Below, piece after piece: positions 30,098-35,575 of a stretch of DNA of 43,642 nucleotides. A program made the translations under genes and the position numbers. Source of the stretch: a virus; the IMG/VR virus record IMGVR_UViG_3300020202_000119, positions 1-43,642 of that record. One strand, 5' to 3'. The notes below the pieces were generated by a model. It was not told the DNA's origin, searched no databases, and saw nothing but the letters and a program-made list of their open reading frames with translations. Position 1 is the stretch's first letter. The number at the start of each line of letters is the position of its first letter.

Positions 30098-30140
30098 AGG
30101 GATTATGAGTCCCTTGCTCTCACCGCTGAGCTACGGGCCT
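30098..30140 (-). other. attP core: 5' half of a tRNA gene with CAT anticodon
   Basis: On the minus strand the bases read as the 5' half of a tRNA: acceptor strand AGGCCCG, TA, D-arm GCTC-AGCGGTGA-GAGC, then anticodon stem-loop AGGGA-CTCATAA-TCCCT. Sequence then diverges and no variable loop, T-arm or 3' acceptor strand follows, so this is not a functional tRNA gene. Next to an integrase gene, it is best read as the attP core matching a host tRNA-Met (or CAT tRNA-Ile). A 9-bp direct repeat AAGTCGTTT (30072-30080 and 30142-30150) brackets it. Confidence 0.75.
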
Positions 30141-31342
30141 GAAGTCGTTTTAGACGCACTGTTTAAATTGTAACTTATTTCATATATTGAACTTGCGCTA
30201 ATATCTTCTTTTGCACAATTTATGGGGCTATGTGTTGAAATATGCTTAAATTTACCAAGCTTGCCACAAACTGTCACATGATCTTGGACTGGGCGACGGT
30301 GCTTCTCGTGTGTTTTCTCGGCCCTCTTTAACACCTCTGCAGCCCTCAAATACCGCTCTGTGATAGCAGTGGTAGAATGTCCCAACTTGGTTTTAACCTG
30401 CCACAGACTATATCCATCTGCCAGATCCCAACAGGCTCTAGCATGCCTGAGGTAGTGTGGGGTAAACACCTTTACATTGGCATCTCTGGCAGCTTTCTTA
30501 AAAGCTTTGCGCACCATTGAATATGTCCAAGCTTTACCATCTTCTCTCGGACACAGATATTCATTGTCCTTATTTCTCTTGGCAGCTTCAATTGTCCACG
30601 GCTCTGCATCGATCATCAGGCGCTTTCCAGGTTTGACCACTTTTGTCCAGACGCGACGATCTATATCTATTTCAGAAACTTTTGCCCGCAAAAGCTCATC
30701 AATACGCGCTCCAGTCTCGGAGAGAACTTCAATCAGTAGTCCAAAACATGGCCTACTCCACGCAGCATCTGCAAACTTGCAAAAGTCAATCCAGTGTAAA
30801 AGCCGCAGCGGTGGCTCAATCTCCTTTATCTTTGATACATCATTGGCTGGATTGCTATGACAATAATCTGGCACACACCATTTGAAAAAAGTTCGGATGT
30901 GTGCCAAGCATTTATTTGCGGTGCGCGGCTTTGTTGGCCTTCCGGCTGAGTCTTCTCTTTTTTTATCGATCATGGCTTTGCGATGCTCTTGCCAGGCCAT
31001 GATATGCCGCCTAGTAATCTGATAAACAGGGAGATCGCCGACGACATCTTTTAAAACGCGAAGGCTCGCACAACTGGCCCGGATATGATCTGGAGTCAGG
31101 CAGAGCGTGCGCATGTGCTCCTCATATTCGGCGATGGCTTTTGAGAGCACGACCTCTTTTGTTGACGGCTCAAACGACAAGCCAAATTTAGAACGATTCT
31201 TTTCGGCCAGTAAATCCAAATATACCTTTTGAGCCTCGAGCTGCGTTCCCCTCAAATGAGAGTGAATGCGTCGATTGGGCATCCGAAGCTCTATCTTCCA
31301 CAAAAAAATGTCACCGGAAATCTTATAGAGTTTTCTCAGCAT
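30131..31342 (-). CDS. int: Tyrosine-family integrase, 403 aa
   Basis: The enzyme recombines attP with the host attB. Core-binding part: about 65-175. Catalytic part: Arg 213 (TGARIDEL), Lys 237 or 240 (VKPGKR), His 296 and Arg 299 (HYLRH), His 322 (LGHSTT) and nucleophile Tyr 331 (ITERYL). All key residues are present. About 55 residues follow the usual end, a non-conserved tail. The final Gly-Pro-stop are encoded by the tRNA-derived attP core. The start overlaps the repressor gene by 20 bases; ATG 31342 has no strong ribosome site, and a start at residue 21 is possible. Confidence 0.92.
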   Translation of the reverse strand: MLRKLYKISGDIFLWKIELRMPNRRIHSHLRGTQLEAQKVYLDLLAEKNRSKFGLSFEPSTKEVVLSKAIAEYEEHMRTLCLTPDHIRASCASLRVLKDVVGDLPVYQITRRHIMAWQEHRKAMIDKKREDSAGRPTKPRTANKCLAHIRTFFKWCVPDYCHSNPANDVSKIKEIEPPLRLLHWIDFCKFADAAWSRPCFGLLIEVLSETGARIDELLRAKVSEIDIDRRVWTKVVKPGKRLMIDAEPWTIEAAKRNKDNEYLCPREDGKAWTYSMVRKAFKKAARDANVKVFTPHYLRHARACWDLADGYSLWQVKTKLGHSTTAITERYLRAAEVLKRAEKTHEKHRRPVQDHVTVCGKLGKFKHISTHSPINCAKEDISASSIYEISYNLNSASKTTSGP

Positions 31343-31874
31343 CTTCTTCGCTCTTCAAGAACTCCTCGTCTAATTTTGCCCGAACGCGTAGGGCCGCCAT
31401 TTTTTCTTCATTGGTCATGGATTGTCTCACACGCTCAGAAGACGACGCTATAAGTTTTGTACTTCTGCTGATGAGAGATAGTATATTAACCAGCTTTGCG
31501 ATTTTAATGTCAAGAACCCCAAGGTGATGTTCGCATGCGCCAACCAACACAGATATTGGAGGTTCTTCGATTCCAGGATTGTCTTTAGTTACTGGTTCCT
31601 TATTTTCAATCAAGGGCTCTTTTCCTTCAGTTTCTACTTTTTTCAGGGCGCGAGGGGTTGGTGATTTTGCAAGCATATCGTCAATATCAAAACAGCCTAG
31701 TGCATCGGCTATTTTTTCTATAGAGCCCCAATCGTTTACACGGTCAGTATTCTTTAAGAACTGTTGGACATATCCGGGATCTAACTCAGCCTTCATGGAT
31801 AGCTGCCTCATTGTCCAGTCGTATGCCTCCAGAAATTCCCTTATTTTATTTTGTACTGCCCGCAAATCGTGCAT
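31323..31874 (-). CDS. CI-like repressor with XRE-type helix-turn-helix, no peptidase domain, 183 aa
   Basis: Residues 7-62 form a lambda-repressor-like helix-turn-helix (TMRQLSMKAELDPGYVQQFL, then IEKIADALG). The C-terminal half is a polar linker (Lys/Glu/Pro-rich) and a helical, probably coiled-coil, oligomerisation domain (about 110-180). There is no S24 peptidase motif, so classical RecA-driven self-cleavage is not expected. A strong ribosome site (AGGAGGG) precedes the ATG. It is transcribed away from the Cro-like gene and continues into int, so repressor and integrase are probably one lysogenic transcript. Confidence 0.8.
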   Translation of the reverse strand: MHDLRAVQNKIREFLEAYDWTMRQLSMKAELDPGYVQQFLKNTDRVNDWGSIEKIADALGCFDIDDMLAKSPTPRALKKVETEGKEPLIENKEPVTKDNPGIEEPPISVLVGACEHHLGVLDIKIAKLVNILSLISRSTKLIASSSERVRQSMTNEEKMAALRVRAKLDEEFLKSEEDAEKTL

Positions 31875-32921: not shown

Positions 32922-33392
32922 TTGGCTTCTATCCTCGCAATAGATCCGGGGACAAACTGTGGCTGGGCATTAGATTTAGACGGCATAGTTCTCAGCGGAG
33001 TATGGAACTTGAAGGGGGGTCGCTATGAGGGTGGCGGGATGAGGTTTATACGGCTGCGCAAGTATTTGGCTGAGACATGTTTTTCTAGCAACGTCAACCA
33101 AATCTACTTCGAGGAGGTACGACGACACCTGGGGACGGATGCTGCGCACATCTACGGCGGAATCATCGCCACAATCACCGCATTCGCGGAACAAAATCAA
33201 ATCCCCTACGAGGGTATACCGGTGGCGACCGTAAAAAAATACGCAACTGGCAAAGGTAACGCAGACAAAAAAATGATGGTTGAGGCGGCGTGCAAGCGCT
33301 GGCCAGATCAATTTATTCAGGACGACAATCAGGCTGACGCGCTTTGGATTTTGGCAACTGGAATCTCACAGATGGAGGGAGCGAAAAAATGA
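32922..33392 (+). CDS. RuvC-like Holliday junction resolvase, 156 aa
   Basis: The fold is RNase H-like: ILAIDPGTNCGWALD (Asp 8), IYFEEV (Glu 64/65), KKYATGKGNADKKMM and DDNQADAL (Asp 135, Asp 139), the spacing of the four acidic residues of RuvC. Length is near RuvC. It probably resolves branched recombination or replication intermediates before packaging. The TTG start is supported by GGAGGTG at good spacing; the gene ends with an ATGA overlap to the RecT-like gene. Confidence 0.8.
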   Translation: MASILAIDPGTNCGWALDLDGIVLSGVWNLKGGRYEGGGMRFIRLRKYLAETCFSSNVNQIYFEEVRRHLGTDAAHIYGGIIATITAFAEQNQIPYEGIPVATVKKYATGKGNADKKMMVEAACKRWPDQFIQDDNQADALWILATGISQMEGAKK

Positions 33393-34291: not shown

Positions 34292-34376
34292 GGCGTGACG
34301 TGGCATGACTCGGCCTTGCGAGGCCTGGCAGGGCATGACTCGGCTTGGCATGGCACGGCGGGACAAGACAAGGAGA
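34292..34376 (+). repeat. Pentamer array 1: 17 units of G(G/A)CNN
   Basis: Starting at 34292 every fifth base begins a new unit of the form GGCNN or GACNN (one unit is TGCGA), in perfect register for 85 bases. The first units are GGCGT, GACGT, GGCAT, GACTC. The last unit, GGAGA, is the Shine-Dalgarno of the gene at 34382. The array fills the whole gap between the RecT-like gene and that gene. A 5-base period is incompatible with coding selection. Confidence 0.85.
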
Positions 34377-34381
34377 CTTTA

Positions 34382-34948
34382 ATGAAGACGGTAATTGCAA
34401 AACTTCGCGGCGTATCGCCGTACAGTCAAAGTAAACATTACGACAAAGAACAAGTGCCAATGCTCGAAAAAGAATCACACCATGCGTATGAGGCGCGGAC
34501 ATGGAAGAATAGGTTGCATATCAACGATTCTGGGAAAGTTTTCATTCCTCCCATGGCATTTAAGAATTGCATTTCTGAGGCAGCTCAATTCTTGGGGGAG
34601 AAAATACCTGGGAAGCGAAATGCAACATGGACGAAGCATTTCTTGGCAGGAATCTTGGTGTCTGAGCCTCTGATTTTAAAAATCAAAAGAGATGAGGTTG
34701 GTGGCGAATGGTTCTTTGTTCCTTCTGATGGAAAGAGGGGTGGAGGATCGAGAGTTAATAAGTGTTTTCCGGTTATTAAAGATTGGGATGGTGACGTTTT
34801 GTTTTACATTCTCGATCAGACTATTACCGAAGATGCATTCCGACATCACCTGGAAGAAGCGGGTAAGTTCATAGGTATCGGCCGATTCCGTCCACGCAAT
34901 GGTGGATTCTACGGAAGATTTGAGGTCGTAAATCTGAAATGGAACTAG
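34382..34948 (+). CDS. Conserved-looking phage protein of unknown function, 188 aa
   Basis: I place the start at ATG 34382, after AAGGAG; the frame remains open upstream through the pentamer array to a GTG at 34295, but that stretch is repeat DNA. Features: GVSPYSQSKHY near the start, FIPPMAFKNCISEAAQFLG (about 54-72), GKRGGGSRVNKCFP, and a Gly/Arg-rich C-terminus GIGRFRPRNGGFYGRFEV. I recall relatives in other phages next to recombination genes, without known function. The Gly-rich end recalls RAMP-type RNA-binding folds, but this is weak. Confidence 0.7.
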   Translation: MKTVIAKLRGVSPYSQSKHYDKEQVPMLEKESHHAYEARTWKNRLHINDSGKVFIPPMAFKNCISEAAQFLGEKIPGKRNATWTKHFLAGILVSEPLILKIKRDEVGGEWFFVPSDGKRGGGSRVNKCFPVIKDWDGDVLFYILDQTITEDAFRHHLEEAGKFIGIGRFRPRNGGFYGRFEVVNLKWN

Positions 34949-34952
34949 TTTT

Positions 34953-35027
34953 AGCGCGGCGCGGCTTGGCTTGGCTTGACGAGACCGGGCCAGGCGCGGC
35001 AAGGCAAGGCTTGGCGAGACGAGGGCA
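34953..35027 (+). repeat. Pentamer array 2: 15 units of G(G/A)CNN
   Basis: From 34953 to 35027 fifteen pentamers follow in perfect register, including three consecutive GGCTT and two GGCAA units. It begins five bases after the upstream stop and ends at the ribosome site (GAGGG) of the gene at 35034. Only the first unit (AGCGC) and the last (GGGCA) deviate from G(G/A)CNN. Confidence 0.85.
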
Positions 35028-35033
35028 ATTTAA

Positions 35034-35522
35034 ATGGAAGAGAAAAAGTCAATTTTTGAGATTTCACCCGACACGCAGCTTCTTATAGCGAGACTTGAGA
35101 AGATGCAAAAGGGAGAATGTGTTCAGTACGACGAATTGAGCAAGATAATAGGTAGGAATGTACAGATGAATCGCAGTTCGCTTTTATCTGCCAGGAGAAT
35201 ACTGCAGCGACAGGGGATGGTTTTTGACGCTGTTTCAGGGGTAGGCATTAAGCGTCTGGATGATATTGGCATTGTCAAGGCCTCGCAGGGTCACGTTTTT
35301 AGAGCTTATCAGGCTGCAAGGCGGGGCGCTCAGAAACTATCTTGTGTAGATTATGATACATTGAATAACGAAGATAAAATTACACACAATACATCTGCAT
35401 CGATACTGGGTGCAATTGCGTTGGTTGCAAAACCATCAAACACAAAAAAGTTGCTTAAAGCAGTTCAGGAAGCGCGCGAAACGCTACCAACAGCCAAGAC
35501 TCTTGAGCTATTTTCAAAGTAG
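35034..35522 (+). CDS. Hypothetical recombination-module protein, 162 aa
   Basis: Starts after pentamer array 2 with GAGGG. The N-terminal 75 residues look like a winged helix (TQLLIARLEKMQKGECVQYD, SSLLSARRILQRQGMVFDAV). The C-terminal half is helical with Lys/Ala-rich segments. No family recognised. Flanked by arrays on both sides, it belongs with the RecT-like and nuclease genes; a regulator of the module is possible. Confidence 0.65.
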   Translation: MEEKKSIFEISPDTQLLIARLEKMQKGECVQYDELSKIIGRNVQMNRSSLLSARRILQRQGMVFDAVSGVGIKRLDDIGIVKASQGHVFRAYQAARRGAQKLSCVDYDTLNNEDKITHNTSASILGAIALVAKPSNTKKLLKAVQEARETLPTAKTLELFSK

Positions 35523-35525
35523 CTA

Positions 35526-35575
35526 GGCATGACTGGACGAAGCGCGGCATGGCTTGGCAAGACGAGACAAGGAAT
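35526..35575 (+). repeat. Pentamer array 3: 10 units of G(G/A)CNN
   Basis: Ten pentamers in register from 35526 to 35575 (GGCAT, GACTG, GACGA, AGCGC, GGCAT, GGCTT, GGCAA, then GACGA, GACAA, GGAAT). It begins four bases after the upstream stop; the last two units contain AAGGA, the ribosome site of the nuclease gene at 35582. Confidence 0.8.

Follow-up and report, generated by a model that had tools for sequence, protein, structure and literature searches.

Organization of the locus

The window analyzed here, a stretch of 43,642 nucleotides, comprises positions 1 to 43,642 of the IMG/VR virus record IMGVR_UViG_3300020202_000119, which encodes an integrase, a CI-like repressor, RecT, and a terminase. 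The integrase and CI-like repressor genes are located on the minus strand (30131-31874), which suggests that the virus is a temperate phage. A RuvC-like Holliday junction resolvase is encoded at 32922-33392, upstream of the RecT-like gene. Three arrays of pentamers occupy gaps between open reading frames: the first precedes a gene of 188 codons, the second separates it from a gene of 162 codons, and the third follows the latter. The recT gene lies just upstream of the first array and a DUF2800 gene downstream of the third (Table 1).

The first-pass annotation of this DNA had described three intergenic arrays of pentamers, each unit consisting of a G(G/A)C triplet and two free bases (NN), and these were confirmed on the plus strand. 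None of 20,000 shuffled segments per array reached the observed number of G(G/A)C units, the maxima of the null distributions being 8, 8, and 6. The longest strict runs comprise 13 and 10 units, whereas none of 200 simulated windows contained a run longer than 4, and a scan of both strands revealed no further run of at least four strict units elsewhere in the window. Each unit had been described as having two or three fixed bases, in unbroken register. The register is indeed unbroken, but each array contains exceptions to the triplet: in a single 5-nt register, strict G(G/A)C is found in 15/17 units of array 1 (exceptions, unit 6, TGCGA, and unit 17, GGAGA), 13/15 units of array 2 (AGCGC and GGGCA), and 8/10 units of array 3 (AGCGC and GGAAT). 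The outermost units are marginal, and array 3 is short (9 to 10 units).

Table 1 Features of the pentamer-array locus (window coordinates)
Feature	Position	Strand	Description
Array 1, candidate vrRNA guide 1	34292..34376	+	17 units; 14 guide units, NN = GT GT AT TC CT GA CT AG AT TC TT AT AC GG, then 3' handle; homologous arrays in relatives
Array 1 3' handle, GACAAGACAAGG	34362..34373	+	3'-end alignment; runs into AAGGAG Shine-Dalgarno-like site of vipr
vipr, 188-aa RAMP protein, SUSP1 Vipr homologue	34382..34948	+	Profile, PHROG, and predicted fold
Array 2, candidate vrRNA guide 2	34953..35027	+	15 units; 12 guide units, NN = GC GC TT TT TT GA CG CA GC AA AA TT, then 3' handle
Array 2 3' handle, GGCGAGACGAGG	35013..35024	+	3'-end alignment of arrays
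vap-like accessory gene, 162 aa	35034..35522	+	Homologues 3' of vipr in most relatives; wHTH-like model
Array 3, candidate vrRNA guide 3	35526..35575	+	10 units; 7 guide units, NN = AT TG GA GC AT TT AA, then 3' handle
Array 3 3' handle, GACGAGACAAGG	35561..35572	+	3'-end alignment of arrays

Proteins encoded between the arrays

The CRISPR-like VIPR (Viral Interference Programmable Repeat) was described for systems of Escherichia phage SUSP1 and a Pseudomonas fulva prophage, and was tested in vivo and in vitro (bioRxiv 2026.04.26.720920; PMC13142463). Its guides (vrRNAs) consist of 9 to 16 pentamers, each combining a fixed GGY with a free NN, and are loaded on the phage-encoded RAMP protein Vipr; the 3' tail of the guides is invariable and, in the SUSP1 clade, structured (PMC13142463). 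Successive NN pairs recognize double-stranded DNA and pass over one base each time; the targets are the DNA of rival phages, with repressors reported among them (PMC13142463). This small programmable DNA-binding system reportedly needs no PAM and has been proposed as an ancestor of CRISPR (PMC13142463).

A Pfam scan of the 188-aa protein gave no match, and tblastn against phage records returned a weak match (E of about 8e-3) to a hypothetical protein of SUSP1 and related phages. When the profile of the 188-aa family was compared with all PDB sequences, the sole significant match was 36pp_D, "SUSP1 Vipr protein" (E = 2.8e-7). The single sequence also matched SUSP1 Vipr with phmmer (E = 1.6e-4), and hhalign aligned the family with a profile of the SUSP1, LESphi2, and DSL-LC04 Vipr proteins at 99.0%. 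Moreover, phrog_4652 is common to the 188-aa protein (2.7e-11) and SUSP1 Vipr (1.4e-96), which share only about 20 to 30% identity in their aligned parts.

The AlphaFold model of the 188-aa protein has a pLDDT of 92.3. The 50 PDB matches listed by Foldseek are CRISPR effector entries throughout, the top ones among those listed being type VII Cas7 and Csm/Csm3-type subunits, with E values from 4e-8. Significant matches in a viral library were few, and one of them carries the name Cas system-associated RAMP superfamily protein. The alignment of relatives shows a conserved C-terminal stretch, EEAGKFIGxGRFRPRNGGFYGRFxV, which is similar to the glycine-rich loop of RAMPs. The predicted model and the length of 188 aa agree with the RAMP fold and the small size (about 20 kDa) of the protein in VIPR. 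As judged from the profile comparisons and the predicted fold, the 188-aa gene product is a Vipr homologue, a minimal RAMP protein.

The 162-aa protein is weakly related to SUSP1 Vap1 (hhalign, 88.7%). From its wHTH-like model, the N-terminal half is predicted to be a DNA-binding winged helix, and the protein probably binds DNA; the PDB matches of the model fell short of significance.

Conservation and guide exchange among relatives

Scanning viral contigs with the 188-aa protein retrieved 19 relatives with 40 to 68% identity to the window protein, and two further relatives were found in genomes of metagenome-assembled bacteria (Geobacteraceae and Nitrospiria). The phage collection contained no DNA-level relatives of the window. 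Pentamer arrays are present around vipr in nearly all relatives, and arrays, vipr, and the vap-like gene stay together in most of the 19 viral and two genomic ones while the surroundings differ. Beyond the vipr-vap pair, the neighbors examined vary and include genes for an integrase, a head maturation protease, exonucleases, and a primosomal protein. The arrays accompany vipr and the gene 3' of it rather than recT. Recurrence next to the recT-like, DUF2800, and 188-aa genes had been proposed as a check on the arrays; it is observed for the 188-aa gene, vipr, but not for recT, since the neighbors change. The description of the genes as belonging to the recombination module does not hold for all of them; the two between the arrays are vipr and the vap-like gene.

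Positional entropy was determined from 26 arrays, selected by the handle motif and aligned on their 3' end. Within the triplet, the outer G and C mostly stay under 1 bit, and the middle position, a purine, shows about 1 to 1.7 bits. The NN positions mostly show 1.8 to 2.0 bits, the maximum being 2. This agrees with the earlier description of two free bases per unit, except for the final two units of each guide, where NN is almost fixed (AA/GA). The most plausible role of the free NN positions is to carry the guide information.

The viral contigs L024 and L026 are 99.3 to 99.4% identical over about 6.3 kb, except for the array directly after vipr, which is replaced between the two (L024:3445-3539 and L026:3445-3586) over a stretch of roughly 90 to 120 nt. 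We interpret this as natural guide swapping, a pattern that replaceable guides predict. The vipr genes of L010 and L011 are 99% identical, and their NN are unrelated.

On L022 (3600-5281), about 15 consecutive arrays of the CGT type are found 3' of vipr and of the vap-like gene, an unusually large bank. On L010 (2808-2977), an unbroken run of 34 GACNN units lies upstream of vipr, perhaps representing two or three guides, fused or overlapping.

In an unbiased search, the dominant 5-periodic triplet varied among the relatives, being GGC, GAC, CAC, CGT, or CGC. Across the regions around vipr in L009 to L032, the change of triplet tracks the Vipr clade while the 5-nt period is constant, and the AA-AA 3' end is kept in the CAC and CGC arrays. 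The main text of the VIPR preprint allows "a related consensus" beside GGY (PMC13142463); relative to that text, clade-dependent triplets (GGC, GAC, CAC, CGT, and CGC) with a constant period and an AA-AA 3' end are possibly new to VIPR. That the triplet of the guide scaffold is evolvable, switching among GGC/GAC, CAC, CGT, and CGC within one Vipr family (about 40 to 68% identity to the window protein) while the period, the NN pair, and mostly the AA-AA end stay fixed, is a proposal to which we give even odds.

The 3' handle and translation starts

The 26 aligned arrays share a handle at their 3' ends with the consensus GRCAAGRCAAG, formed by the last two units, GRCAAGRCAAGG, with their nearly invariant NN. 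In the window, a start codon is found within about 10 nt 3' of the arrays, and a likely Shine-Dalgarno site (AAGGAG, GAGG, and AAGGA) overlaps the handle in all three, 6 to 9 nt upstream of the ATG. In L010, L012, L014, and L031, the handle lies well upstream of the gene start, and the Shine-Dalgarno site stands on its own between the two. An extra translational effect through the overlap is possible but not general, because these relatives keep the handle and the Shine-Dalgarno site apart. Only one promoter-like site was found near the arrays, fewer than in shuffled sequences, which indicates that the arrays are probably part of an operon mRNA.

A structured 3' tail like that of the SUSP1 clade did not show up here, no conserved structure being apparent past the handle, and an Rfam search of the window and seven relatives gave no match. 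In L023 to L027, a stretch GACTTTTGGTGGC..GCGGAATA recurs between successive arrays; Rfam returned nothing for the loci covered, and the stretch may be the 3' tail or a processing element of that clade.

VIPR reading and proposed mechanism

We consider the locus to encode a VIPR system in a temperate-type phage, with the arrays as vrRNA guides and the 188-aa gene as vipr, at a probability of about 0.93. Direct support comes from the pentamer arrays, the homology and predicted fold of Vipr, a module conserved among relatives, hypervariable NN, replacement of guides, and the 3' handle. By analogy with published VIPR, the guide RNAs would be produced, loaded, and read with a 1-nt skip, and the system would repress its targets and act against competitors.

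As in the SUSP1 and P. fulva systems, the locus is phage encoded and combines a RAMP protein of the same PHROG, an accessory gene 3' of vipr, and, around vipr, pentamer arrays (about 9 to 16 units) with a fixed triplet, a free NN, and a conserved guide 3' end. It differs from them in the triplet, which in the window is G(G/A)C, always with C and with A allowed at position 2, whereas the published one is GGY. It also differs in the placement of the arrays before, between, and after both genes, abutting start codons, in the structured 3' tail, which is not seen in the window, and in the accessory protein, which matches Vap1 weakly by profile.

In the mechanism proposed, each Vipr subunit would grip one fixed G(G/A)C triplet, giving a filament on the guide RNA that exposes the two free NN bases of each unit as guide information. 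The NN pairs, in series and with one base skipped, would read a matching double-stranded DNA site, NNxNNxNN; the guides would comprise the 14, 12, and 7 units before the handle, and the last two units would serve as the 3' handle. Target binding would then block transcription of a gene of a rival phage or prophage, and the vap-like 162-aa protein may assist. The first-pass idea of a ring or filament protein, encoded nearby and reading one triplet per subunit at a conserved spacing, survives here in principle; the identity and purpose assigned to that protein do not.

The CRISPR class 1 Cas7 backbone (type VII Cas7 and Csm3) shares with the window protein the RAMP/RRM fold, a glycine-rich motif near the C terminus, and an assumed filament on guide RNA. 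The window system, however, has a period of 5 nt versus 6 and a single small protein. No CRISPR repeat-spacer array was found among the neighbors scanned, and a Pfam scan of the ten genes around the arrays revealed no Cas domain.

Search for targets

No targets were found in the window or in the loci of its relatives. Exact 20-base patterns of arrays 1 and 2 with a skip of one base had no match in the viral contigs, and the array of L031 had none in 141 genomes from the order to which the Geobacteraceae relative belongs. Patterns of 16 bases gave 9, 17, 19, 1, and 21 matching stretches, which outside the seed are mostly at chance level. In a codon-phase test of 851 NN units, the dinucleotides were nonrandom but agreed about as well with phase 1-2 as with phase 2-3, which lends no support to a wobble-skip signature. 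Since no natural targets were found, we infer the targeting code of the window clade by analogy. The relevant rivals may be unsequenced, because the genome relatives sit in two metagenome-assembled bacteria (Geobacteraceae and Nitrospiria).

Three candidates were rejected. In the most promising of them, ten consecutive NN units of array 2 match, with a 1-nt skip, L040:4754-4776 at the C-terminal end of a Cro/CI-type repressor gene, but only 5/12 bases agree outside the seed, which is within chance. For array 1, a site on L042 (10/16 outside the seed) is unconvincing after 17 trials, and a match to integrase box I was dropped given the matches in unrelated frames and proteins.

Alternative explanations

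The arrays could be leader elements as well as VIPR guides, with Vipr bound to the mRNA shutting off translation of the vipr, vap-like, and DUF2800 genes in an autogenous manner. The overlap of handle and Shine-Dalgarno site in the three window arrays and their probable location in an operon mRNA are in line with this dual role, which we nevertheless regard as unlikely: the two elements are separate in four relatives, and leader control alone leaves the swapping of NN unexplained.

The first-pass annotation had suggested a ring or filament protein that takes up one triplet per subunit, with TRAP and RecT/Redβ as precedents and possibly with autogenous control by the adjacent RecT-like protein. 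In this reading, a protein of the recombination module would bind the mRNA leader. TRAP (trp RNA-binding attenuation protein) does bind regularly spaced RNA triplets, one per subunit, which the 5-nt spacing and triplets of the window resemble, and recT closely precedes array 1. The conserved protein encoded next to the arrays is, however, a CRISPR-type RAMP (Vipr), unrelated to TRAP; the triplet is GRC instead of (G/U)AG, and a scan of the ten neighboring genes revealed no TrpBP domain. Control by RecT found no supporting evidence, the arrays staying with vipr in relatives while other neighbors change. TRAP acts in cis, and array replacement, in which free positions change between near-identical phages, has no place in such a model, which we hold to be very improbable. 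Functionless pentamer repeats, neutral or born of slippage, have an even smaller claim. Tandem arrays can stem from slippage, and a few duplicated blocks are found in L024 and L012. Slippage would, however, copy neighboring NN, whereas the NN are near maximal entropy with the triplets fixed, and divergent phages, with differing triplets, likewise carry arrays beside vipr. The earlier judgment against simple slippage is thereby upheld; related phages devoid of arrays had been named as the sign of neutral repeats, and nearly all vipr relatives carry them.

Implications

Read as a VIPR locus, this region shows the anatomy of VIPR independently, in an uncultivated phage and from sequence data only. 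VIPR gains a distant clade with it, one with natural guide swapping among near-identical phages and clade-specific triplets. If the scaffold triplet is indeed evolvable, the triplet-reading pocket of the RAMP protein would shift its specificity together with the guides, giving rise to mutually orthogonal VIPR systems. The relatives are material for finding the RAMP residues that read the triplet and for examining orthogonality between VIPR systems.
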